Part shown: one piece after another, positions 3,362-24,549 of the stretch
How the letters are laid out: the number at the start of each line of letters is the position of its first letter
Numbering within the stretch: position 1 is the first letter of the stretch
Assembly: GCA_021325015.1 (NCBI GenBank)
Contig: JAJPHY010000141.1
Coordinates: 1-41,011 of the forward strand
Source: Actinomycetota bacterium
GTDB lineage: Bacteria > Actinomycetota > UBA4738 > HRBIN12
Direction: 5' to 3'
DNA: 41,011 nucleotides
Notes under the pieces: model-generated
What the model was told of the DNA's origin: nothing
The model's database searches: none
The model's input: the letters and a program-made list of their open reading frames with translations, nothing else
Made by a program: the position numbers and the translations under genes

Positions 3362-4273
3362 GTGAGCGAGGTCGTCATCGAGGTCGTCGGCCTGCGCAAG
3401 TCCTACGGCGACGTGGAGGCCGTGCGCGGGATCGACCTGCGCGTGCGGCGCGGCGAGGTCTTCGCGCTCCTGGGTCCGAACGGGGCCGGCAAGACCACCA
3501 CCGTCGAGATCCTCGAGGGCTACCGCGAGCGCACGGCCGGGGAGGTTCGGGTCCTCGGCCACGACCCGGCGCGTCGGGATCGAGCGCTCCGCGAGCGCGT
3601 CGGGATCGTGCTGCAGTCGACGGGGATCGATCCGTACCTCACGGTTCGGGAGACCGTGGAGCTGTACGCGCGGTACTTCCCCCACCCCCGGGACGTGGAC
3701 GAGGTGATCGACCTCGTCGGCCTCACCGACAAGCGGGACGCCCGCGTGATCCGGCTCTCCGGCGGTCAGCAGCGTCGCCTGGACGTCGCGATCGCGCTCG
3801 CCGGCGACCCCGAGCTGCTGTTTCTCGACGAACCGACGACCGGGTTCGACCCCGGGGCCCGGCGAAACGCGTGGGAGATCGTCCGGAACCTGGCCTCCCT
3901 CGGAAAGACCGTCTTCCTCACCACGCACTACATGGACGAGGCCGAGAACCTCGCGAACCGGGTGGCCGTCATCGCGCGCGGCGAGATCGTCGCCGAGGGA
4001 CCGCCCGGCCTGCTCGGCGGCCGGCACCTCGCCGAGACCCTCATCCGCTTCCGGGTCCGCTCGGGCGCGAGCGGACCCCCCGCCGTTCCCGGCGCCGTGG
4101 TGCGGTCGAACGGGCTCGTCGAGGTCCGCACCGAGACGCCGACCTCGACGCTCCACGAGCTGACCGGGTGGGCGATGGCCGGCGGGTTCGAGCTCGACGG
4201 CCTGGAGGTGACCAGGCCGACGCTCGAGGACGTCTACCTGGAGCTCACCGGGGGGGAGGCGGGCGCCGAATGA
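3362..4273 (+). CDS. ABC-2 type exporter, ATP-binding protein
   Basis: A 303-aa ATPase driving an exporter, of the DrrA/CcmA/NodI kind. Walker A is GPNGAGKTTT (about residues 40-49), the Q-loop is VLQSTGIDPYLTVRE, the signature LSGGQQRR, Walker B LLFLDEPTTGFDP, and the switch His is in TTHYMDEAE. A C-terminal extension of about 70 residues after GEIVAEGPPGLLGG is typical of drug and antibiotic exporter ATPases. GTG start; a TACTCT -10-like box (3347-3352) lies 9 nt before it. It overlaps its permease by 4 bases (ATGA). The substrate is unknown. Confidence 0.93.
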   Translation: MSEVVIEVVGLRKSYGDVEAVRGIDLRVRRGEVFALLGPNGAGKTTTVEILEGYRERTAGEVRVLGHDPARRDRALRERVGIVLQSTGIDPYLTVRETVELYARYFPHPRDVDEVIDLVGLTDKRDARVIRLSGGQQRRLDVAIALAGDPELLFLDEPTTGFDPGARRNAWEIVRNLASLGKTVFLTTHYMDEAENLANRVAVIARGEIVAEGPPGLLGGRHLAETLIRFRVRSGASGPPAVPGAVVRSNGLVEVRTETPTSTLHELTGWAMAGGFELDGLEVTRPTLEDVYLELTGGEAGAE

Positions 4274-5043
4274 GCGATGTGGCTCTCATGCTCCGCCAGG
4301 TGCGGTACACGAACAAGGCGTTCTGGCGGAACCCCGCGTCCGCGTTCTTCACGTTCGCGTTCCCGCTCATGTTCCTCGTGATCTTCACCTCCCTTCTCGG
4401 CAAGGGGACCGTGCCGATCGGGGGCGTGCTGATCAAGCAGTCGAGCTACTACGTGGCGGCGATGGCGACGTTCTCGGTCATCACGGCGTCCTATACCAAC
4501 ATCGCGATGAGCGTGACCTACCAGCGGGACTCGGGGATCCTCAAACGAGTCCGGGGGACCCCGCTGCCCGGCTGGGCGTACCTGGTCGGACGCGTGATTC
4601 ACGCCCTGCTGGTGGCGGTGCTGCTGGTCGCCCTCACCGCCGCCTTCGGCGCCGTCTTCTACGGCGCCGACCTGCCGACCGGGGCGCTCCTCGCGAAGTT
4701 CGTCCTGGTGGTCGTGGCCGGTGGAGCCAGCTTCGCCGCGCTCGGCCTGGCGACCACGGCGATCGTCCCGAACGCCGACGCGGGGCCGGCGGTGGTGAAC
4801 GCCATCATCCTGCCGCTCCTGTTCCTGTCCGGCATCTTCATCCCGCTCGGCGACAACTCGCCGGCGTGGATCAGGACGGTCGGGACCATCTTCCCCGTCA
4901 AGCACTTCGCCGACGCCATGCGGGCGGGCTTCTACGGGCGGCCGTTCCGGTTCGAGTGGCACGACGTCCTGATCCTGCTCCTGTGGGGACTCGGAGGGCT
5001 CGTCGCGGCCGCCAGGTTCTTCTCGTGGGAGCCGCGGAAGTAG
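4270..5043 (+). CDS. ABC-2 type exporter, permease
   Basis: A 257-aa inner-membrane protein with about six transmembrane segments, partner of the preceding ATPase. Recognisable features are the N-terminal amphipathic stretch NKAFWRNPASAFFTFAFPLMFLV, the cytoplasmic loop YQRDSGILKRVRGTPLP, and the late motif IILPLLFLSGIFIPLG before the last helices, all typical of ABC2_membrane-family permeases such as DrrB. ATG at 4270 overlaps the ATPase stop. The two genes form a minimal heterodimer-type exporter; no accessory or resistance gene lies beside it. Confidence 0.92.
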   Translation: MSDVALMLRQVRYTNKAFWRNPASAFFTFAFPLMFLVIFTSLLGKGTVPIGGVLIKQSSYYVAAMATFSVITASYTNIAMSVTYQRDSGILKRVRGTPLPGWAYLVGRVIHALLVAVLLVALTAAFGAVFYGADLPTGALLAKFVLVVVAGGASFAALGLATTAIVPNADAGPAVVNAIILPLLFLSGIFIPLGDNSPAWIRTVGTIFPVKHFADAMRAGFYGRPFRFEWHDVLILLLWGLGGLVAAARFFSWEPRK

Positions 5044-5057
5044 CAGCGAGGGCTCCC
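5027..5057 (+). terminator. weak hairpin spanning the exporter stop codon
   Basis: GGGAGCC (5027-5033) and GGCTCCC (5051-5057) form 7-bp arms around the TAG stop. There is no T-tract, so a terminator role is only possible. Confidence 0.25.
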
Positions 5058-5092
5058 GCGGACCGGCCGGCTGTCTCGACGGGGGGGTGTGC

Positions 5093-5098
5093 TAGGCT
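5093..5098 (+). promoter_or_regulatory. candidate -10 box for the amino acid importer operon
   Basis: TAGGCT lies about 50 nt before the ATG at 5151, which has a good purine-rich ribosome site (CGAGGGGG, about 5137-5144). This would give a normal leader of about 46 nt. Confidence 0.35.
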
Positions 5099-5150
5099 CG
5101 CGCTCGGGCGTGACCCACGCCCCACCGACATCCTTCGAGGGGGATCGACG

Positions 5151-6077
5151 ATGCGGAAGGTGCTGGTCGCGGTCGCGGCGTTCGGGCTCCTGCTCGCGGC
5201 CTGCGCCAAGAGCTCCACCACGACGCAGACCACGAGCCCGCCTGCCGGCGGCTCGACCGAGACGAGCGCGGCGCCGGCGACCGCCGCGGACTGCGCGAAG
5301 GGCGTCACGAGCTACGTGAGCCCCGGCGCGCTCACGATCGGAACCGACAACCCCGCCTACCCGCCCTGGTACGCCGGTGACGACACGGCCGGCACCAACT
5401 GGAAGATCAACAACCCGGCGACCGGCAAGGGCTTCGAGAGCGCCGTGGCCTACGCGGTGGCCGAGAAGCTCGGCTTCAGCGCCGACCAGGTGCAGTGGGT
5501 GGAGGTCCCGTTCAACCAGTCGTTCGCGCCCGGGCCGAAGAGCTTCGACTTCGACATCAACCAGATCTCCTACACGCCCAAGCGGGCGCAGGCGGTCGAC
5601 TTCAGCGAGAGCTACTACGACGTGAACCCGGCCCTGGTCGCCCTGAAGGGAACGCCCATCACGCAGGCGACGACCCTCTCGGACCTGAAGGACTTCTCTC
5701 TCGCCTCGCAGATCGGAACGACCGACTACGACTACATCGTGAACGTCATCAAGCCGAACAAGGAGGCGGGCGCCTACAACAGCCTCGCGGACGCCGTGCA
5801 GGCCCTCAAGTCCGGCAGCGTCGACGGGATCGTCGTCGACCTGCCGACGGCCTTCTACATCACGGCGGTGCAGATCCCGAACGGGGTCATCGTGGGGCAG
5901 TTTCCTCCGGCCGGCGGCCAGCAGGAGTACTTCGCAATGGCCTTCGCCAAGGGCAACCCGCTCGTGCAGTGCGTGAACATGGCGCTCGAGGAGCTGAAGT
6001 CGGACGGCACGCTCCAGTCCATCCAAGACCGGTGGCTCTCCAGCAAGGTGAGCGTCCCGGTCTTCTCCACCTCCTGA
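5151..6077 (+). CDS. amino acid ABC transporter, substrate-binding lipoprotein
   Basis: A 308-aa lipoprotein of SBP family 3 that would capture a polar amino acid or related compound outside the membrane. The signal peptide MRKVLVAVAAFGLLLAACAK has a lipobox LLAAC with the lipidated Cys at residue 17. A Ser/Thr/Pro-rich linker follows, then the family pattern GTDNPAYPPWY, KGFESAVAYAVAEKLG, DFDINQISYTPKRAQAVDFSESYY and AMAFAKGNPLVQCVNMAL. It is first in a three-gene importer operon with the permease at 6087 and the ATPase at 6986. The ligand cannot be named from the sequence. Confidence 0.93.
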   Translation: MRKVLVAVAAFGLLLAACAKSSTTTQTTSPPAGGSTETSAAPATAADCAKGVTSYVSPGALTIGTDNPAYPPWYAGDDTAGTNWKINNPATGKGFESAVAYAVAEKLGFSADQVQWVEVPFNQSFAPGPKSFDFDINQISYTPKRAQAVDFSESYYDVNPALVALKGTPITQATTLSDLKDFSLASQIGTTDYDYIVNVIKPNKEAGAYNSLADAVQALKSGSVDGIVVDLPTAFYITAVQIPNGVIVGQFPPAGGQQEYFAMAFAKGNPLVQCVNMALEELKSDGTLQSIQDRWLSSKVSVPVFSTS

Positions 6078-7974: not shown

Positions 7975-10900
7975 ATGGAACGGGTCTCCCGACGTGACTT
8001 CCTCAAGGTCGCCGGCGGGACCGCCGCCGGGGTGCTGGTCCTCGGGCAGGCCGGCCTCGCGCTTCGCAAGCTCGCGCCGGTCCAGGTCGTCAACCCCCTC
8101 GAGGCCTACCCGAACCGCGACTGGGAGCGCGTCTACCGCGATGAGTACCGGTACGACAGCTCGTTTGCCTACGTGTGCTCGCCGAACGACACGCACGCGT
8201 GCCGGATGCGCGCGTTCGTCCGCAACGGGGTCGTGACCCGGATCGAGCAGAACTACGACAGCGCGCGCGTGGCCGACGCGCTCGGCAACAAGGCCACGGC
8301 CCACTGGAACCCGCGGGGCTGCCCGAAGGGAATGACCTTGCAGCGGAGGGTGTACGGCCCGTACCGCCTTCGGTACCCGATGCTCCGTGCGGGATGGAAG
8401 CGGTGGGCAGACGACGGCTACCCGTACCTCACGCCGGAGCTCCGCGACCGCTACCGGTTCACCTCCAGGGGCACCGACACCTTCGTGCGAGTCTCATGGG
8501 ACGAGGTCTTCGGCTACGTGGCCCGGGCGATCGTGGCGACCGCCGCTCATTACAGCGGGGAGGAGGGCGCGAGGCGCCTCGCGGACGAGGGGTACGAGCC
8601 GGAGATGATCCAGGCCATGGCCGGCGCCGGGACGCGGACGATCAAGATGCGCGGTGGCATGGGTCTGCTAGGCGTCCTGGGCAAGTACGGCATGTACCGG
8701 TTCAACAACATGCTCGCGATCCTCGATGCACGAATCCGTGGCGTCGCCCCGGAACAAGCGCTCGGCGGCAGGAACTGGTCGAACTACACGTGGCACGGAG
8801 ACCAGGCGCCGGGGTTCCCGTTCGTCCACGGCCTGCAGAACTCCGACGTGGACCTCAACGACCTTCGCAACGCCGCGCTGCACATCCAGGTCGGGAAGAA
8901 CCTCGTGGAGAACAAGATGGCCGACTCCCACTGGTTCCACGAGGTCATGGAGCGGGGCGGCACCATCGTGGTCATCGCGCCCGAGTACAACCCGCCGGCC
9001 AGCAAGGCGGACTACTGGATCCCGGTGCGCCCGCAGACCGACGCCGCGCTGTTCCTGGGCATCACGAAGATCATGATCGACGAGGGCTGGTACGACCGAG
9101 ACTTCGTGACGCGGTTCACGGACCTGCCCCTTCTGATTCGGACCGACACCTTGCAGCGGCTGGATCCGGCCGACCTGTTCCCGGCCTACCGCAAGGGGCT
9201 CACGCCGGACGGGCCGAGCTTCGCGGAGCAGGGGCTCCTCCCGGAGGACTACGACCGGCTCCACGACTTCGTCGTGATCGACGCGAGGACGGGGCGGCCG
9301 GTCGCGATCACCCGCGACGACGTCGGCGACCGTCTGAAGGTCGAGCCCGCCCTGGAGGGCACCTATGAGCTCCACCTGCGCGACGGCTCGAGGATCGAGG
9401 CGATGACGCTGTTCGAAGCGTACCGGCGGCACCTGGCCGACTACGACCTCGACACCGTCGCCGAGATCACGAGATCGCCGAAGGAGAAGATCCTCCGGCT
9501 CGCGCGGGACATCTGGACGCACCGGCCGGTCGCAATCCACATAGGCGAGGGGATCAACCACTGGTTCCACGCCACGGAGGCCAACCGGGCGTTCCACCTG
9601 CCCCTCATGCTGACCGGCAACATCGGGGTCTCCGGAGGCGGATGCCACTCCTGGGCCGGGAACTACAAGTCGGCGCTGTTCCAGGAGACCGACTGGAGCG
9701 GGCCCGGCATCAACGGCTGGTTCTACGAGGACCCGTTCGCCCAGAACCTCGACGAGCACGCGGGTCCGAAGGAGATTGTGGTCTTCAAGCACGCGAAGGG
9801 CGAGGAGCCCGCCTACTGGAACCACGGTGAGGTGCCGCTGGTGGTCGACACGCCGAAGTACGGGCGGAAGATCTTCACGGGGCTCACGCACATGCCCACG
9901 CCCACGAAGATCCTGTGGTTCACGAACGTGAACCTGTTGAACAACGCGAAGCACGCCTACGACATGCTGTTCAACGTGAATCCGAAGATCGACATGATCG
10001 TCTCGCAGGACATCGAGATGACCTCGTCGTGCGAGTACGCGGACGTCGTCCTCGCCGCAAACTCGTGGATGGAGTTCGAGGGTTACGAGGTCACGGCGTC
10101 CTGCTCGAACCCGTTCCTGCAGGTCTGGAAGGGCGGGATCAAGCCGATCGGCGACACGAAGGACGACCTGGCGATCCTGGCCGGGGTGGCGAAGGCGCTC
10201 ACCGCCGAGACCGGCGATCAGCGGTTCGCGGACCACTGGAAGTTCGAGCTCGAGGGCAGGCGCGACGTGTACCTGCGTCGCTTGCTCGCTGGGTCGGCCA
10301 CGACGGCCGACTACGACTTCGACACCCTGATGGCCGGGGGGTACGGCGAGCCCGGCGTGGCGCTCATGATGTTCCGCACCTACCCGCGGATCCCGTTCTA
10401 CGAGCAGGTGCACGACAACCTGCCGTTCTTCACGGACACGGGCAGGTTGAACGCCTACTGCGATATCCCGGAGGCGATCGAGTACGGCGAGAACTTCATC
10501 GTCCACCGGGAGGGTCCCGAGGCCACGCCGTACCTGCCGAACGTCATCGTCTCGACGAACCCCTTGATCCGCCCCGACGACTACGGCATCCCCCTGGACG
10601 CGATGGGATGGGACGAGCGGACGGTCCGCAACGTGAAGATGTCGTGGTCGCAGGTGAAGCGGACGACGAACCCCCTGTGGAAGCAGGGGTTCCAGTTCTA
10701 CCTCGTGACACCGAAGCAGCGGCACAGCACGCACTCGTCGTGGGCCGTCACCGACTGGCATTTCATCTGGTCCAGCAACTATGCCGACCCCTACCGCACC
10801 GATGCCCGGCAGGCTGGGGTGGCCGAGCACCAGATCCACGTGAACCCGCAGGCCGCGATGGACCTGGGCATCGAGGAGGGCGACTACGTCTACGTGGACG

Positions 10901-11418
10901 CCAATCCGGCCGACCGCCCCTACCGGAACTGGAAGGCGGACGACCCTCGGTACAAGGTGGCACGCCTGATGCTCCGGGTGAAACTCAACCCCTCCTATCC
11001 CTACGACGTGGTGATGATCAAGCATGCCCCGTTCATCTCCACCGAGAAGACCGTGCGAGCGCACGAGACGCGGCCCGACGGGCTGGCCCGCTCCGAGGAC
11101 ACGGGGTACCAGGCGAGCTTCCGTTACGGGTCGCACCAGTCGCTCACGCGCGACTGGCTGATGCCGATGCACCAGACCGACAACCTCTTCCTCAAGTCCA
11201 AGGACGCCACCCACTTCGTCTTCGGTTACGAGCCGGACAACCACGCGGTGAACACCGTTCCGAAGGAGACCCTCGTGAAGCTCGCGTTCGCCGAGGCGGG
11301 CGGTCCCGGGGGAGTCGGCCGGTGGAACGCCGGTGCGAGCGGCCGGATGCCCGGCACGGAGGACGAGACGATGCTCGCCTATCTCGCCGGGGCCTTCGTG
11401 AGGAAGGTGGGGCCGTGA
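7975..11418 (+). CDS. type II DMSO-reductase-family molybdoenzyme, alpha subunit (nitrite oxidoreductase/nitrate reductase-like)
   Basis: A 1147-aa catalytic subunit carrying a Mo-bis-MGD cofactor and one FeS cluster. The N-terminus has a Tat signal (SRRDFLKVAGG, residues 5-15) with a hydrophobic stretch, so the folded enzyme should be exported. The FS0 cluster site reads C68-x3-D72-x3-C76 and C116 (RGCPKG), with Asp at the second ligand position, a pattern I associate with Nitrospira-type NXR. The expected Mo-ligand Asp is D276 in YTWHGDQAPG, the position of NarG's Asp ligand. Later family blocks include GKNLVENKMADSHWF, PVRPQTDAALFLG and GEGINHWFHATEANRAF. The length and the gene order with beta, TorD-like chaperone and heme-b gamma fit the type II group (NXR, NAR, chlorate, perchlorate and selenate reductases, DMS and ethylbenzene dehydrogenases). 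The substrate cannot be fixed by reading; NXR/NAR-like is the best resemblance. Confidence 0.88.
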   Translation: MERVSRRDFLKVAGGTAAGVLVLGQAGLALRKLAPVQVVNPLEAYPNRDWERVYRDEYRYDSSFAYVCSPNDTHACRMRAFVRNGVVTRIEQNYDSARVADALGNKATAHWNPRGCPKGMTLQRRVYGPYRLRYPMLRAGWKRWADDGYPYLTPELRDRYRFTSRGTDTFVRVSWDEVFGYVARAIVATAAHYSGEEGARRLADEGYEPEMIQAMAGAGTRTIKMRGGMGLLGVLGKYGMYRFNNMLAILDARIRGVAPEQALGGRNWSNYTWHGDQAPGFPFVHGLQNSDVDLNDLRNAALHIQVGKNLVENKMADSHWFHEVMERGGTIVVIAPEYNPPASKADYWIPVRPQTDAALFLGITKIMIDEGWYDRDFVTRFTDLPLLIRTDTLQRLDPADLFPAYRKGLTPDGPSFAEQGLLPEDYDRLHDFVVIDARTGRPVAITRDDVGDRLKVEPALEGTYELHLRDGSRIEAMTLFEAYRRHLADYDLDTVAEITRSPKEKILRLARDIWTHRPVAIHIGEGINHWFHATEANRAFHLPLMLTGNIGVSGGGCHSWAGNYKSALFQETDWSGPGINGWFYEDPFAQNLDEHAGPKEIVVFKHAKGEEPAYWNHGEVPLVVDTPKYGRKIFTGLTHMPTPTKILWFTNVNLLNNAKHAYDMLFNVNPKIDMIVSQDIEMTSSCEYADVVLAANSWMEFEGYEVTASCSNPFLQVWKGGIKPIGDTKDDLAILAGVAKALTAETGDQRFADHWKFELEGRRDVYLRRLLAGSATTADYDFDTLMAGGYGEPGVALMMFRTYPRIPFYEQVHDNLPFFTDTGRLNAYCDIPEAIEYGENFIVHREGPEATPYLPNVIVSTNPLIRPDDYGIPLDAMGWDERTVRNVKMSWSQVKRTTNPLWKQGFQFYLVTPKQRHSTHSSWAVTDWHFIWSSNYADPYRTDARQAGVAEHQIHVNPQAAMDLGIEEGDYVYVDANPADRPYRNWKADDPRYKVARLMLRVKLNPSYPYDVVMIKHAPFISTEKTVRAHETRPDGLARSEDTGYQASFRYGSHQSLTRDWLMPMHQTDNLFLKSKDATHFVFGYEPDNHAVNTVPKETLVKLAFAEAGGPGGVGRWNAGASGRMPGTEDETMLAYLAGAFVRKVGP

Positions 11419-11690
11419 GCCCGAACAACGACGCGACGCCGGAGGACCCCCTCGAGATCGTCGGCGTGGTGCTGGAGCGACCGATGGACGAGCGGTCGAT
11501 CCACGAGATGGCGAGGACGTTCGTGGAGGAGTATGCGCTCATGGGCTGGGGCCCCCGGAGAATCCTCGAACTGTTCCGCCGTCCGTTCTACGCCGGGGCC
11601 CACGACGCGTACGAGCGGCTGGGCGAGGATCGCATCCGGGCGCTGATCGCCGACACCTTCGGCTCCGACCAGGAGCGGCTCGATGCCTGA
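11415..11690 (+). CDS. small conserved-looking protein between alpha and beta subunit genes
   Basis: A 91-aa soluble protein that I do not recognise as a named family. It starts with GTG overlapping the alpha stop (GTGA) and ends 8 bases inside the beta gene, so it is coupled on both sides and is surely part of the operon. It lacks a signal peptide, membrane segment and cysteines. The sequence is acidic and mostly helical, with a central block YALMGWGPRRILELFRRPFY followed by DAYERLGEDRIRALI. I have an impression of similar small proteins near other molybdoenzyme genes, but cannot name them. Possible roles are assembly factor or small extra subunit (inference). Confidence 0.8.
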   Translation: MSPNNDATPEDPLEIVGVVLERPMDERSIHEMARTFVEEYALMGWGPRRILELFRRPFYAGAHDAYERLGEDRIRALIADTFGSDQERLDA

Positions 11691-12945
11691 CGTCTTCAAC
11701 TGGCAGCTCGGCCGGGCGATGGGATACCGGTTCCCGGCCGCCTACCCCAAGCGGCAGTTCGCCTTCGTCTTCAACATCAACCGGTGCCTGGCCTGCCAGA
11801 CGTGCACGATGGCCTGCAAGTCGACCTGGACCTTCTCCGAGGGCCAGGAGTACATGTGGTGGAACAACGTCGAGACCAAACCCTACGGGGGGTACCCGCA
11901 GGGGTGGGACGTGAAGACCCTCGCCCTGCTCGAGCAGGCCAACCCCGGCGGGCAGGTCTGGGACGCACGCCCCGCCGGAAGACCGGGGAGCATCTACGGG
12001 GTGTTCAAGGGCCAGACGATCTTCGAGGCTGCCCAGGCCAAGGGCGGACAGGAGCAGGCCCTCGGGTACCTCCCCACCGATGAGGAGTATCGATCCCCCA
12101 ACATCTACGAGGACACCGCGAGGGGCCGGCGGGGCGAGCCGGGGGTCTACGGAATGGGCACCTCGCTCCCGGAGCACACGACCTGGTTCTTCTACCTGCA
12201 GCGCCTCTGCAACCACTGCAGCTACCCCGCGTGCCTGGCGGCGTGTCCACGCAACGCGATCTACAAGCGGCCCGAGGACGGTATCGTCCTGATCGACCAG
12301 GCGCGGTGCCGCGGCTACCGCAAGTGCGTGGAGCAGTGCCCCTACAAGAAGCCGATGTACCGGGCGACCACGCGCGTCTCCGAAAAGTGCATCGGTTGCT
12401 ACCCCCGGGTGGAGGGGACCGACCCGCTGACCGAGGGAATCCCGATGGAGACCAGGTGCATGGCCGTGTGCCCCGGGAAGATCCGGATGCAGGGGCTCGT
12501 CGAAATCGACCCGCGCACCGGCGACTGGAAGCCCGATCCCGAGAACCCCCTCTACTACCTGGTCAAGGAGTCGAAGGTCGCCCTGCCGCTGTACCCGCAG
12601 TTCGGAACGCAACCGAACGGCTACTACATCCCGCCGAGGTGGGTGCCGCGTGAGTACCTGGAGCAGATGTTCGGCCCCGGCGTCGAGCACGCGATCGAGC
12701 AGTACCTGGCCCCGCCCCGCGAGCTGCTGGCCGTGCTCCAGCTGTTCCGGGCGACCCAGCGGATCATCTTCAAGTTCGAGATCCGCAAGGGGCCCAAGGT
12801 CCGCGACGTCGTCATCGGCGGGCGGAAGTGGTCGATGTACAACGACACGGTCATCGGCTACGACTCGGCCGGCAACGAGGTGGCCAACCTCTCGGTCGTG
12901 GAGCCGATGTACGTGCGCCCCAGGAAGTACCTGAACTCGATCTGA
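11683..12945 (+). CDS. type II DMSO-reductase-family beta subunit, iron-sulfur electron transfer protein (NxrB/NarH-like)
   Basis: A 420-aa ferredoxin-type subunit that passes electrons between alpha and gamma. Four cluster-binding groups are visible: C35-x2-C38-x2-C41-x3-C45, C176-x2-C179-x4-C184-x3-C188, C209-x5-C215-x3-C219 followed by PYKKPMY, and C236-x2-C239 with later RCMAVC. In the third group the usual second Cys is replaced by Tyr (CRGYRKC); in NarH the same place is Trp and the cluster is 3Fe-4S, so one 3Fe-4S plus three 4Fe-4S clusters are expected. The blocks YMWWNNVETKPYGGYPQGWD and EKCIGCYPRVEG are typical of the NXR/chlorate/ethylbenzene branch. There is no signal peptide, so export would be by hitchhiking with alpha. 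AGGAG lies about 7 nt before the ATG. Confidence 0.92.
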   Translation: MPDVFNWQLGRAMGYRFPAAYPKRQFAFVFNINRCLACQTCTMACKSTWTFSEGQEYMWWNNVETKPYGGYPQGWDVKTLALLEQANPGGQVWDARPAGRPGSIYGVFKGQTIFEAAQAKGGQEQALGYLPTDEEYRSPNIYEDTARGRRGEPGVYGMGTSLPEHTTWFFYLQRLCNHCSYPACLAACPRNAIYKRPEDGIVLIDQARCRGYRKCVEQCPYKKPMYRATTRVSEKCIGCYPRVEGTDPLTEGIPMETRCMAVCPGKIRMQGLVEIDPRTGDWKPDPENPLYYLVKESKVALPLYPQFGTQPNGYYIPPRWVPREYLEQMFGPGVEHAIEQYLAPPRELLAVLQLFRATQRIIFKFEIRKGPKVRDVVIGGRKWSMYNDTVIGYDSAGNEVANLSVVEPMYVRPRKYLNSI

Positions 12946-12955
12946 GGTTGCCAGG

Positions 12956-13687
12956 GTGGACACGAGCCTTCGCGACGCGGTGACCGAGGCGAACGACGGG
13001 CTCGCCCGCAGCGCCGTGTACCGGCTGCTCGCCCAGGTCCTGTCCTACCCAACGCCGGCCGGCGTGGAGCAGCTCCTCGAGGAGGACGTGCCGCTCGCCC
13101 TCGCGCTGGCGCCGATCCTGTCCGGTCCGGTGGGAACGCTCGTGGCGGATCTCGCGGCGGCACTCGAGGGCGTGACCCGGGAGGCCCTCGAGCGCGCCTA
13201 CCTCACGGCGTTCACGCACGTCCACTCGGCGGACTGTTCGCTCTACGAGACCGACTACACGGCCGCGCGGGTGTGGCGACAGAGCCAGGAGCTCGCCGAT
13301 CTCGGTGGCTTCTACCGGGCATTCGGAGTCGAGGAGCGGATGGAGCGGCCGGACCACGTGGCGGTGGAACTCGAGTTCCTTCACCTGCTCGCGTACAAGG
13401 CGGCGTGGGCGGCCGCCACCCACGACCGCGAGCACGTGCGCACGTGCGAGCGGGCACGGGAGGCCTTCCTCGCCGACCACGCGCTGCGCTGGATGCCCGG
13501 ACTCCTCGAGCGGCTGGAGGTCCTCGGGGCGGGCGGCCCCTACGCGGCCGTGGCCCGCCTCGCCCGGCGATTCCTCTCCGACGAGGCGGCGCGGTTCGGG
13601 CTGCGGACCGACGCGGGCCCCACGCCGACGCCGGCGGCGCACGAAGGCGAGGCGGAGGGGGATCCGGCCCTGTGCGAAGGGGAGTGA
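12956..13687 (+). CDS. TorD/NarJ-family molybdoenzyme chaperone
   Basis: A 243-aa, largely helical cytosolic protein. Family-type features are RSAVYRLLAQVLSYPTP near the N-terminus, the block LYETDYTAARVWRQSQELADLGGFYRAFG, then HVAVELEFLHLLAYKAAWA. Such chaperones bind the Tat signal and the apo catalytic subunit, and hold back export until the Mo cofactor is inserted. Its place between beta and gamma parallels NarJ in narGHJI and the D protein of the ebd, ddh and clr operons. GTG at 12956, 10 nt after the beta stop; the stop overlaps the gamma ATG by one base. The C-terminal 25 residues are a low-complexity tail. Confidence 0.87.
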   Translation: MDTSLRDAVTEANDGLARSAVYRLLAQVLSYPTPAGVEQLLEEDVPLALALAPILSGPVGTLVADLAAALEGVTREALERAYLTAFTHVHSADCSLYETDYTAARVWRQSQELADLGGFYRAFGVEERMERPDHVAVELEFLHLLAYKAAWAAATHDREHVRTCERAREAFLADHALRWMPGLLERLEVLGAGGPYAAVARLARRFLSDEAARFGLRTDAGPTPTPAAHEGEAEGDPALCEGE

Positions 13688-14667
13688 TGAACAGGGTCGG
13701 TGGGAAGACGGTCGCGGTCATGGCCCTCGCGGTCGGGCTCGCAGGCGTCCTGACGCTGTCCGGGACGCGAATGGCCGCCTCCCAGGGGACCGTCCTCACC
13801 GCCGCGAAGACCGACCGCGTGGTGCCGGTGACCGAGCCCTGGTCCTCGTTTTGGAACCGCGTTCCGAAGGTGAGCATTCCGCTGTCGGCCCAGCAGGTCA
13901 CGCCCCCGATGGGCGGCCACCGGTGGACGCTCGAGGCCCGCGCCGTGCAGGATGGGGAAAGGCTCTACATCGAGCTCGAATGGGCAGATCCCACGCCGAA
14001 TCGGTCCGTGGCCGCCCCCCAGCTGTTCACGGATGCCGCGGCGATCGAGTTCCCATCGGTCGCCGCCACGAGCGTGCCGGCGCTGTGCATGGGCGACCCG
14101 AATGCGACCGTGAACATCTGGCAGTGGAAGGCCGCATGGCAGGCGGACGTTCACCGCGGCTTCCAGGGGGGCGTACGGCACCGTTACCCGAACGCGGACG
14201 TGGACGGGTATCCGTTCCACGAGGACCCGGCCTTCTCCCCCGGGCGGTACGTGGACAACCCGTTCTCCGCGACGGACCGAACCTCGCCCGTGGACAACCT
14301 CGTGGCCGGTGGCTTCGGCACGCTGACCGCCGACCCCGCGCCGGTGGTGCAGGGCTGGGGCGCCTGGCGTGACGGGACGTGGCGGGTCGTGTTCTCGCGC
14401 CCGCTCGCCGTGGGACGCGAGGGCAACGTCGAGCTCGGGCCCGACGACTGGACCGACGTCGCGTTCGCCGTGTGGGACGGGGCCGCCGACGAGCGGGACG
14501 GGATGAAGTCGGTGTCGAGCTTCGTGGCGCTCGACGTCTCGCCCAAGCCAATGCCTTGGGGGCCCGGCTTCCCGTACTGGCCGGCCCCCTTCTTCGTGTT
14601 CCTCGCGCTGTGGGCCGGTTTCGCCTGGATGGTGATCGGGCACTTGCCGGGGAAGGGGCGGACGTGA
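13687..14667 (+). CDS. heme-b gamma subunit, ethylbenzene dehydrogenase-type (NxrC/EbdC-like)
   Basis: A 326-aa exported protein of the EB_dh heme-binding family. An N-terminal Sec-type signal (residues about 1-33, hydrophobic VAVMALAVGLAGVLTLSG, AAS-Q cleavage region) is followed by the beta-sandwich domain with LYIELEWADPTPN, VNIWQWKAAWQ, NLVAGGFGTLT, GWGAWRDGTWRVVFSRPL and MKSVSSFVAL. In EbdC and DdhC a Met and a Lys bind the heme; M135 (LCMGDP) and K274 (GMKSVSS) are the candidates here. Unlike soluble EbdC, it ends in a transmembrane helix (about residues 300-320, WPAPFFVFLALWAGFAWMVI), so the complex would be anchored on the outer face of the membrane. The stop overlaps the next gene (GTGA). 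Confidence 0.85.
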   Translation: MNRVGGKTVAVMALAVGLAGVLTLSGTRMAASQGTVLTAAKTDRVVPVTEPWSSFWNRVPKVSIPLSAQQVTPPMGGHRWTLEARAVQDGERLYIELEWADPTPNRSVAAPQLFTDAAAIEFPSVAATSVPALCMGDPNATVNIWQWKAAWQADVHRGFQGGVRHRYPNADVDGYPFHEDPAFSPGRYVDNPFSATDRTSPVDNLVAGGFGTLTADPAPVVQGWGAWRDGTWRVVFSRPLAVGREGNVELGPDDWTDVAFAVWDGAADERDGMKSVSSFVALDVSPKPMPWGPGFPYWPAPFFVFLALWAGFAWMVIGHLPGKGRT

Positions 14668-15722
14668 TCGCCCGGGAGCGGGAGCCGGAACTTCAGCCGG
14701 CCGTCGAGGGCAGCGCGACGGTCGCGTGGACGCCGCTCGCTGCGGTGCTCACGCTGCTGCCGGTCGCCGCACTCGCTGAGCTGTTCCTCGTCCGCACCTT
14801 CTACCGGGTCGGTATCTACATTCCGAAGGAGGGTCCGTTCCGGACCATCTACCGGACGCTCACCGGGATCGGGTCGTTCGCCCTGAACCTCTCGTCCGTG
14901 CTCGCGTTGGCGGCCCTCGCGATGTTGGTCGGTCGCTCGTGGGCGCGCGGCCTGCGGGCGGCGGCCCTCGCGCTCGGCGCGTTCACGGCGGTCTCGCTCC
15001 TGCTCGCCCGGGCGGGCCCCTCGGAGTTCGGACCGACGGCGCGCGCGGCGTTCTCGCTGGCGGTGGTGGTGGTCGCCTGGCCCTTCGTGCGAGGCGGCGC
15101 CGGGTGGTGGCACCGCGTGGCGGTCGGCGGCGTCGCCGTCTCGGCGCTCCTGTCGTCCTACGCGGGTCTGGTCGGCGACGCCGGGCGATTGGTCCCGGCG
15201 GCGAACGGTCCCGGGGGCGCGGTCGGCGCGCAGCTTGTGGGCGAGGCGCTCGTGGTGGCCACGGCGTTCGCGTTCTGCACGGCGTGGGCGTCGTCGGACG
15301 GACTGCGGTTGCGGCCACTGTTGGTGGGGCTCGGGCCGGCGCTCGCGCTGATCGTCGCCTGGCGGGCCAACGGAGCGGTCACGGGGATCCTCGTGCTCTG
15401 GACCGCAGGGCTGCGCCTGTACCTGCCCGTCTGGGCGTACGCGGGCGCGCTGTGGGCGTTCTCGTCGGCGGCGATCGGGTGGCTGCCCCGACACGGGTGG
15501 CGGAGCGCGGGTCTCGCCCTGCTGCTCGTCGCGGGGATGGCCCTGGACTCGACCTACCTGCAAGCTCTGGCGCTCGTGGCACTCGTCCTGCTCACCGACG
15601 GCTCGGCACTGGGCGGGCTCCCGGAGCGGCCGTCTCAACATGGGGCCACGATCGGCTCGATCGCGCCGCGGACGGGGCGATTGACCGACCGAGCCGACAG
15701 GCGTGTCGGTGCCCGCGCCTAG
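14664..15722 (+). CDS. uncharacterised multi-pass membrane protein at the end of the molybdoenzyme operon
   Basis: A 352-aa integral membrane protein with about ten hydrophobic segments, the first at residues 24-43 and the last ending near residue 315, then a polar tail of about 35 residues. I do not recognise the family. It does not look like NarI (no pairs of His in helices to bind two hemes) nor clearly like NrfD/PsrC. Translational coupling to the gamma gene (GTG at 14664, GTGA overlap) argues that it works with the complex, for instance as a quinone-reactive or anchoring subunit, or a transporter for the substrate or product (inference). The last codons also contain the uvrB promoter. 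GC-rich bias could exaggerate the helix count. Confidence 0.75.
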   Translation: MIAREREPELQPAVEGSATVAWTPLAAVLTLLPVAALAELFLVRTFYRVGIYIPKEGPFRTIYRTLTGIGSFALNLSSVLALAALAMLVGRSWARGLRAAALALGAFTAVSLLLARAGPSEFGPTARAAFSLAVVVVAWPFVRGGAGWWHRVAVGGVAVSALLSSYAGLVGDAGRLVPAANGPGGAVGAQLVGEALVVATAFAFCTAWASSDGLRLRPLLVGLGPALALIVAWRANGAVTGILVLWTAGLRLYLPVWAYAGALWAFSSAAIGWLPRHGWRSAGLALLLVAGMALDSTYLQALALVALVLLTDGSALGGLPERPSQHGATIGSIAPRTGRLTDRADRRVGARA

Positions 15723-15731: not shown

Positions 15732-17744
15732 GTGCCCCCGTTCAAGGTCCACGCCGACTTCGAGCTCTCCGGCGACCAGCCGAGGGCCGTCGACGAGCTC
15801 GCCCAGGGCATCCTGGCCGGCGAGGACCACCTGACGCTGCTCGGAGCCACGGGCACCGGCAAGACGTTCACGATCGCGCACGTCATCGAGCGCGTGCAGA
15901 AGCCCACCCTCGTGATGGCCCCGAACAAGTCGCTCGCGGCGCAGCTCGCGAACGAGTTCCGGGAGTTCTTCCCGGAGAACGCCGTCGAGTACTTCGTGAG
16001 CTACTACGACTATTACCAGCCCGAGGCCTACGTGCCGCAGACCGACACGTACATCGAGAAGGACTCCTCGATCAACGACGAGATCGAGCGCCTGCGCCAC
16101 TCGGCCACCGCGGCCCTGCTCACGCGCCGGGACGTGATCATCGTCGCGAGCGTCTCCTGCATCTACGGCCTGGGGTCGCCCGAGGAGTACGAGGGCCAGA
16201 TCCTGCGGGTCCACCGGGGCGTCGCGACCGACCTGGAGTGGGCCAAGAAGCGGCTGATCGACATCCAGTACGACCGCAACCAGGTCAGCCTCACCCGCGG
16301 CAAGTTCCGGGTCCAGGGCGACGTGCTCGAGGTGCACCCCGCCTACGAGGAGACCTGCGTTCGAATCGAGTGGTGGGGCGACACGATCGAGCGGATCTCC
16401 CGGTTCGACCCGATCACCGGCGAGATCCTCGGCGAGCTTCCGGAGATCACGATCTACCCGGCCACTCACTACGTCGCCTCCGACGAGCGCATGAAGCGCG
16501 CCGTCCAGACCATCGAGGAGGAGCTTCGCGAGCGCCTGGCGTGGTTCGAGTCGCAGGGCAAGCTCCTCGAGGCCGAGCGCCTGCGCATGCGCACCACCTA
16601 CGACCTCGAGATGCTCCGCGAGGTCGGGTTCTGCTCGGGGATCGAGAACTACTCGCGCCATATCGACGGCCGAAGGCCCGGCGAGGCCCCCTACACGCTC
16701 CTCGACTACTTCCCGGACGACTGGCTCTGCGTGATCGACGAGTCGCACGTCACGGTCCCGCAGATCCACGGCATGTACGAGGGCGACAAGACCCGGAAGG
16801 AGACGCTCGTCGAGTACGGGTTCCGCCTGCCGAGCGCCCTCGACAACCGCCCGCTCCGGTTCGACGAGTTCGCGAAGAAGGTCCGGCAGGTGGTGTTCAT
16901 GTCGGCCACCCCGGGTCCGTACGAGCTCCGGGTCTCCAAGCGCGTTGCGGAGCAGATCGTTCGGCCGACCGGGCTGGTGGACCCCGAGGTCGAGGTCCGT
17001 CCCACCCGAGGCCAGGTCGACGACCTGATGGAGGAGATCCGACGGCGCGCCGAGGCCGGCCAGCGCGTGCTGGTCACCACCCTCACGAAGAAGATGGCCG
17101 AGGACCTCACCGACTACCTGATGGAGATGGGGATCCGCGTGCGGTACCTCCACTCCGAGATCGACACGATCCACCGCATCGAGATCCTGCGCGACCTGCG
17201 CCTTGGCGAGTTCGACGTGCTGGTCGGGATCAACCTGCTCCGCGAGGGCCTGGACCTGCCCGAGGTCTCGCTGGTCGCCATCCTCGTCGCCGACAAGGAG
17301 GGATTCCTCCGGTCCGAGACCTCGCTCATCCAAACGATCGGCCGCGCGGCGCGCAACGTCGACGGCAAGGTCCTCATGTACGCGGACGAGGTGACGGACT
17401 CGATGCGCGCGGCGATCTCCGAGACCCAGCGCCGCCGCAAGATCCAGATGGCGTTCAACCGCGAGCACGGCATCGACCCGCAGTCGATCCGGAAGAAGGT
17501 CTCCGACATCCTGCTCACGATGGCGGTCGATACGGGCACGGCACCAGAGCCCGACCGGCGCCGCCGGCGCCGCGAGCGTCCGGAGATGCCGACCGAGGAG
17601 CTCGAGCGCCTGATCCAGAGCCTGGAGGAGGAGATGCACGAGGCCGCCAAGGAGCTCCGGTTCGAGTACGCCGCGCGCCTGCGCGACGAGGTCGTCGACC
17701 TCCGGAAGGAGCTGAAGGCGCTGCGGCAGGCGGGGGTCGGCTAG
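15732..17744 (+). CDS. uvrB: excinuclease ABC subunit B
   Basis: The 670-aa helicase-like subunit of nucleotide excision repair that receives damaged DNA from UvrA and then loads UvrC. Walker A GATGTGKT (residues about 38-45), the beta-hairpin [20 protein letters not shown] that clamps DNA, the DEAD-like [17 protein letters not shown], motif [16 protein letters not shown], and a C-terminal UVR domain (residues about 625-665, [20 protein letters not shown]) for UvrC binding. The start is GTG at 15732; the ATG two bases upstream is out of frame. The promoter is PafBC-like. Length is normal. Confidence 0.98.
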
Positions 17745-20457: not shown

Positions 20458-21585
20458 TCAGCTCACCGAGACGCCGATCAGCCGCCCGATCCCGAACGTC
20501 ACCGCCGCCGCACCGGCGCCGATGAGGAGCTGGCGGGCCCCGCCCCTCGCGAACGACCTTCCGGTGATCAGCCCGACCCCTGCCCCCACCGCGAACAGCG
20601 CCACCGCCGCCACGGCGACGGCCCCGACGAACGCCGCGTCCCCGGAGCCGAACATGTAGGGCAGCACGGGGAGCACCGCCCCGATCGCGAACGAGAAGAA
20701 GCTCGAGATCGCCACGCCCCACGGCGACCCAAGCTCCTCGGGGTTCAGCCCGAGCTCCTCACGGGCCTTGGTGTCGAGAGCGTGCTGCGGGTCGGCCATG
20801 ATCGAGGAGGCCATCGCCTCGGCCTGCTCCTTCGGGATGCCCTTGGCCCGGTAGATGAGCGCGAGCTCGTGCATCTCCTCCTCGGGCATCGCCTCGATCT
20901 CCTCGGCCTCGAGCCGGATCTCGCGCTCGAACAGCTCCCGCTGCGAGCGGACCGAGACGTACTCACCGGCGCCCATCGAGAACGCGCCCGCCAGCAGCCC
21001 CGCGAGCCCCGCGAGCAGGATCACCCGCCCGCTCGCCTGCCCGCCGGCCACGCCCATGACGAGCGCGAGGTTCGAGACCAGACCGTCGTTCACGCCGAAG
21101 ATCGCCGCTCGAAGCGCCCCCGACGCGTCGCCGCGGTGCCAGCGCTCGCCGCGCACGATCCCGGTCCGGACCGTCGAGGGCGACAGGCCGGCCACGACGC
21201 GTGCGTGGACCCGCTCGTCGACCGCCATCGAGCGCTTGGCCTCGGGCACCGCATCGTAGTGGCCGGCGTCCGCGATCTCGGCGCGCTCGACGATCGGGAG
21301 CACCGCCCTCGCGCCGAACCGGCGGGTGAGCCAGATCACCAGCCGGGTCCGCGCCCCGAGGCGGTGGTCGCCCGGACCGGGCTCGGGCTCGCCGAGCTCG
21401 ACCAGCTTGTCCGCCCAGTGGCGCGCGTGGCGCTCCTCCGCCTTCGCGAGCTCGAGGAAGATCTCGCGCTGCTCGCCGGCCGACCGATCCGCGAGCGCGC
21501 GGTAGAGCGCGGCCCCGTCCATCTCGGCCGCCCAGTGCTCCCGGAACTCGTTCGCCTTCGACGCCGCCAATGGGTCTCTCGTCAT
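20458..21585 (-). CDS. ferritin-like domain fused to VIT1/CCC1-family transporter
   Basis: A 375-aa membrane protein, probably moving iron or manganese across the cell membrane. The N-terminal ~140 residues are a ferritin-like/rubrerythrin-type helical domain with metal-ligand motifs [20 protein letters not shown] (ExxH) and [10 protein letters not shown] (ExxH). The C-terminal part has about five transmembrane helices, with the VIT1 block [21 protein letters not shown] and [22 protein letters not shown], and the soluble acidic metal-binding helices containing [17 protein letters not shown]. The ferritin-like fusion is a known bacterial architecture. ATG at 21585; TAGGCT at 21607-21602 would give a leader of about 10 nt. 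Divergent from uvrA. Confidence 0.9.
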
Positions 21586-21633
21586 CGAGCCGTCCCCGTT
21601 GAGCCTAGCGGATCGGCTGCGCCGGCCCCCCTC

Positions 21634-21639
21634 TACAAT
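21634..21639 (+). promoter_or_regulatory. candidate -10 box, leaderless start for uvrA
   Basis: TACAAT ends exactly 6 nt before the GTG at 21646, the same spacing as in uvrB and uvrC. No PafBC-like element lies 8 nt upstream. Confidence 0.55.
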
Positions 21640-21645
21640 GGGCCC

Positions 21646-24549
<2,904 letters not shown>

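Follow-up and report, generated by a model that had tools for sequence, protein, structure and literature searches.

The window analysed here is a stretch of 41,011 nucleotides that makes up one entire contig of a 2.6-Mb genome (97% complete). It carries an operon of the nitrite oxidoreductase (NXR) type, in which a gene for a ten-helix membrane protein comes after the gene of the heme-b subunit gamma (Table 1). The catalytic alpha subunit matched Kuenenia nitrite oxidoreductase A over its full length (PDB 7b04_B; residues 3-1143 matched, 1706 bits), while its scores for perchlorate reductase, ethylbenzene dehydrogenase and NarG were far below the NXR-A score. The gamma subunit matched NXR-C of Kuenenia (PDB 7b04_C; 2.5e-27) and also the CbsA model TIGR03154 (2.5e-9); it begins with a hydrophobic, signal-like stretch and ends in a hydrophobic segment that is predicted to be a membrane helix. 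Because alpha matches NXR-A in full length and gamma matches NXR-C, the assignment to the exported NXR type holds, and by family the neighbouring enzyme is, as judged from its sequence, of the exported Nitrospira/anammox type. A sequence-only reading of the same DNA had named an exported NXR-type enzyme at this place, in agreement with the NXR-A match, the TAT signal and the NXR-C type of gamma.

Table 1. Features of the NXR-type operon, conserved parts of the ten-helix protein, and NXR loci that lack it.
Feature	Position	Strand	Evidence or description
NXR-A type alpha, catalytic	7975..11418	+	1147 aa; Pfam hits TAT_signal (twin-arginine export) and Molybdopterin
Small conserved gene	11415..11690	+	about 91 aa, '...FVEEYALMGW...'; GTGA overlap with alpha
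Beta subunit, iron-sulfur	11683..12945	+	TIGR03478 DMSO_red_II_bet 2e-76, below curated cut-off
Delta, TorD/NarJ-like chaperone	12956..13687	+	Nitrate_red_del 1.2e-18; TIGR03482 1.3e-25
Gamma, EB_dh-type heme-b subunit	13687..14667	+	EB_dh 6.5e-31
Ten-helix CbsB-like membrane protein (proposed gamma partner)	14664..15722	+	GTG start; 352 aa
Conserved extracytoplasmic loop 1 (predicted)	14793..14873	+	codons 44-70: R44, R48, I53-P54, G70; 17-18 homologs aligned
Conserved half-helix and loop 7-8	15372..15440	+	codons 237-259: I242 L243 x L245 W246 xx G249 ... Y259; alignment
Half-helix of the loop 7-8 region	residues 237-248		AlphaFold helix
Divergent second-subtype loci without the partner	L168, L169, L170, L171, L167		genomes G400, G569, G399, G514, G407

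The small gene between alpha and beta gave no match in the Pfam search, and its counterparts were recognisable between alpha and beta at three other loci (L005, L017 and L166). No Rieske/cytochrome b gene was identified within the operon itself. The gene that comes after the ten-helix gene, from position 15732, was recognised by its sequence and is one that we take to be uvrB-like. Farther along the window, the region 20458-22000 on the minus strand looked, on inspection by eye, like a fusion of a rubrerythrin-like with a vacuolar iron transporter-like protein, inside an ORF at 20458-24441.

The stop of gamma at 14667 results in a 4-bp GTGA shared with the ten-helix gene (14664-14667). This overlap had been noticed before, and we found that a 4-bp overlap (ATGA or GTGA) recurs in 13 of the 16 loci where the ten-helix gene comes after gamma, so that it is not due to chance. 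The protein itself had no Pfam or NCBIfam match, even at E<=10, and no match was obtained in a PDB sequence search, in a scan of the genome contigs with this protein alone, or, at E<=0.001, in a fold search of the PDB and viral structures. These searches agree with the earlier statement that the protein has no detectable kinship to a known anchor; a strong match to some unrelated family that has nothing to do with molybdoenzyme loci was also looked for by HMM and structure searches and did not appear. A viral lysoplasmalogenase fold was rejected as not significant (E 0.3, TM-score 0.35/0.44). Homologs were gathered iteratively, both within the phylum and in a sister class, and 17 were recovered at 18-63% identity. 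Since these homologs retain eight positions (E39, R44, R48, P54, E194, L245, W246 and G249), the ten-helix protein is considered the product of a real, selected gene.

Ten transmembrane segments were predicted from the alignment of the 17 homologs. The AlphaFold model built on an 18-sequence alignment (pLDDT 86.3, pTM 0.84), which replaced an earlier, poor single-sequence model (pLDDT 51), also consisted of ten membrane helices, as counted in the sequence-only reading, plus a short half-helix after helix 7. Loops 2, 4, 6 and 8 were positively charged and both termini are therefore predicted to lie inside (N-in/C-in), a topology that would place nearly all the conserved positions on the outer side. 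Apart from the stretches in Table 1, E39 closes helix 1, E194 was placed at the outward-facing end of helix 6, and G291-Q299 is conserved at the turn between helices 9 and 10; the conserved Arg and aromatic residues are predicted to face outside. The protein has three His residues, none of them conserved, and no alignment column had the same His in every sequence among the 17 homologs. Where most homologs have the forms 'IHIP' and 'GLHSTYQ', the window protein carries Tyr and Asp in place of the His, which excludes a conserved His as heme ligand. Overall, the alignment contained no conserved heme, Cys or His ligands.

We then considered the position of the gene across genomes. The copy in the window and 15 others (16 out of 18) were directly 3' of gamma, in the order alpha-beta-delta-gamma-ten-helix gene. 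One copy, in genome G597, was directly 5' of alpha (L166:14650-15666, minus strand); it is the most divergent member of the family and has lost R48. Because this copy adjoins the 5' end of alpha, the linkage to NXR has survived a rearrangement of the operon. The remaining copy, in the 87%-complete assembly of G407, was an orphan with no adjoining NXR gene (L172:9610-10626, minus strand). The idea that the homologs always sit beside an EB_dh-type gamma was therefore borne out in the 16 copies and did not hold for these two. Altogether, the gene was linked to NXR in 17 of the 18 copies, spanning many families; all 13 loci with an NXR-type beta among 296 genomes of the sister class carried it, and each copy found in a phylum-wide sample of 397 genomes was at an NXR locus. 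By homology and gene linkage, the ten-helix protein forms a real family tied to the NXR-type enzyme, and the survey upholds the earlier view that its gene belongs with that enzyme. As side observations, a polytopic gene (8418-9506) comes after the orphan copy on the same strand of L172 and is, by eye, presumably similar to TehA/SLAC1-type anion channels, and beta at locus L036 of G575 (3687-5245) was in two overlapping frames, which fits a frameshift or an assembly error.

Five divergent alpha-beta-gamma-delta loci were without the ten-helix gene (Table 1), with an alpha 38-41% identical to that of the window; G400 and G569 hold both types of NXR locus. The C-terminal hydrophobic helix was present in all the partnered gammas (17 out of 17) and in none of the five unpartnered, soluble-type gammas. 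The ten-helix protein is thus tied to the membrane-anchored gamma in particular.

The closest parallel of the gamma/ten-helix pair is CbsA-CbsB of the Sulfolobales. CbsB is an uncharacterised hydrophobic protein encoded next after CbsA (PMC5461723; PMC3189178), and CbsAB operates with SoxLN, a Rieske/cytochrome b pair (PMC3189178, PMC5461723). CbsB genomes were reached by an archaeal 16S pattern scan and 28 usable CbsB loci were taken. As with the ten-helix gene, CbsB lies directly downstream of an EB_dh-related heme-b gene, mostly with a 4-bp overlap: the EB_dh-related ORF was directly upstream in all 28 loci (gamma-HMM E 1e-17 to 9e-32), and the overlap was found in 20 of them. CbsB (TIGR03155) is likewise predicted to have ten helices and an N-in/C-in charge pattern, at a length of about 310 aa, and both proteins share the same order of motifs (IP in loop 1, a half-helix after TM7, and Gly-rich TM9-10). 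They differ in their partners, which are the CbsA cytochrome b558/566 with SoxLN for CbsB and NXR alpha-beta for the ten-helix protein.

Sequence comparison of the two families gave mixed results. The TIGR03155 model had no matches at E<=10 for the window protein and four homologs, nor any match in the protein's own genome, and with the CbsB HMM the best ten-helix homolog reached no more than 10.7 bits. Local HHalign between the families was not significant (P 0.11-0.59), and a reverse profile search against CbsB did not outperform reversed sequences. When the profiles were instead aligned globally, with their order preserved, the score with CbsB exceeded 1000 out of 1000 segment shuffles (z 4.2), and control alignments of the ten-helix family with the ten-helix EamA gave z 0.9-1.3. 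CbsB aligned with EamA, to which it is unrelated, gave z 2.3-2.6, and the shuffle test is therefore suggestive only and not fully calibrated. Relaxing the shift or gap settings of HHalign gave high scores, but for CbsB/EamA as well, and these results were discarded. With a global alignment that beats every shuffle and no significant match by local HHalign, homology of the ten-helix protein to CbsB is suggested, not proven.

Kuenenia NXR-ABC (PDB 7b04) and the Nitrospina/Nitrospira-type NXR share with the window an exported enzyme of alpha, beta and EB_dh-type gamma. The Kuenenia NXR-ABC differs in being soluble and in employing NXR-T, a cytochrome c, for its tubules; the heme of NXR-C is of high potential, with an electron acceptor that is not yet identified (PMC8387239). 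For Nitrospina the operon has been published as nxrABC and, in the part of that source dealing with the operon, no ten-helix protein of this kind is among the described products; an additional membrane anchor is considered likely there for Nitrospina NXR (PMC3578206). NarM was set aside as an alternative, being described as a one-helix anchor (PMC4683180). Our literature search retrieved no paper that connects NXR with a CbsB-like protein and none describing such an NXR type in this lineage.

We propose, with a probability of about 0.62, that the ten-helix protein is the integral-membrane partner that docks gamma of an exported Nitrospira/anammox-type NXR at the outer membrane face. It would be made together with gamma by translation through the gene overlap, the C-terminal helix of gamma would pack onto the ten-helix bundle, and the extracytoplasmic loops 1, 7-8 and 9-10 would keep gamma and, via gamma, the alpha-beta dimer at the outer surface of the membrane. 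From nitrite, electrons would pass through alpha and beta to heme b of gamma, and from there to a high-potential acceptor at the outer surface, with the ten-helix protein itself being free of heme. It would act like CbsB beside CbsA in the Sulfolobales, and it may be a distant homolog. We infer the binding between gamma and the ten-helix protein, the docking function and the electron acceptor; a dock is the best reading of a protein that combines the absence of cofactor ligands with conserved residues on the outer face. Several points count against it: gamma owns a membrane helix and could in principle do without a further anchor, G407 has an orphan copy, albeit in an 87%-complete assembly, the local profile comparison with CbsB is not significant, and CbsB itself is uncharacterised.

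The sequence-only reading had put the protein forward as a candidate for the electron step from gamma to the membrane chain. This is only half borne out: a dock on which gamma sits is likelier than a wire that conducts electrons itself, because conserved heme, Cys or His ligands are absent. A protein that itself moves electrons between gamma and quinone, as a conduit or a quinone-reactive anchor resembling NarI or the NrfD type, would suit a gene placed after gamma in the operon and a helix number near that of the NrfD type, though this reading is not supported and we consider it quite improbable. NarI, the gamma of NarGHI, is likewise a membrane subunit encoded in the operon of a related molybdoenzyme, and it has about five helices and two hemes bound by His pairs; the ten-helix protein has neither this five-helix build nor the two His pairs, has no sequence or fold match to NarI in Pfam, NCBIfam or the PDB and no conserved His column, and hence is not a NarI, as had been stated before. 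In addition, the nitrate/nitrite couple lies far above the quinones, so that quinone reduction by nitrite would be strongly uphill. The couple is at +420 mV (PMC8387239). NrfD-type anchors are also polytopic, stand beside an Fe-S/molybdoenzyme and have no redox cofactor (PMC8076601), a trait compatible with a conduit, but the ten-helix protein showed no sequence or fold match to NrfD/PsrC-type proteins in Pfam or the PDB, and its neighbour is a heme-b subunit.

A factor that aids the insertion of heme b into gamma, or of gamma into the membrane, and is absent from the finished complex would be consistent with the strict pairing with a membrane-anchored heme-binding subunit, with no other trait, and with the conserved aromatic and Arg residues of the outer face. 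Such a role seems unlikely, since the family lacks the conserved His that a heme-handling protein would be expected to have, and the divergent soluble-type gammas do without the ten-helix protein though needing heme too. The exchange of nitrite and nitrate, also suggested earlier, would agree with a polytopic protein that is probably co-transcribed with a nitrite/nitrate enzyme, judging from the overlap. It is not supported, because no similar transporter family or fold was found in Pfam, NCBIfam or the PDB folds and the enzyme lies outside the membrane: with alpha exported by its TAT signal, the substrate need not cross. Moreover, conservation is on one face with no pore pattern, and CbsB, the nearest parallel, belongs to a system without nitrogen oxides, which makes a transporter very improbable. 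Finally, an unrelated gene adjoining the operon by chance would explain the single orphan copy, but it is close to refuted by the linkage in 17 of the 18 copies across many families and one rearranged operon, and by the phylum-wide sample, where the copies were all at NXR loci.

The docking reading bears on two questions that are open in the literature, namely the membrane attachment of exported NXR (PMC3578206) and the electron taker of the NXR-C heme (PMC8387239). A fifth operon product restricted to gammas with a membrane helix is a concrete subunit candidate for purification. The nearest system, CbsA-CbsB, was already known; new is a protein of this kind beside NXR, one that the TIGR03155 model does not recognise as a member. 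Tentatively, and at somewhat less than even odds, CbsA-CbsB and gamma with its ten-helix partner may represent one ancient two-gene module of an exported high-potential heme-b subunit and a ten-helix dock, serving a Rieske/cytochrome b complex in archaea and an exported NXR in bacteria, in which case one exported-NXR branch would have the ten-helix protein as its missing membrane subunit. The resemblance to CbsA-CbsB offers an initial clue to what two membrane families, both uncharacterised, may do.
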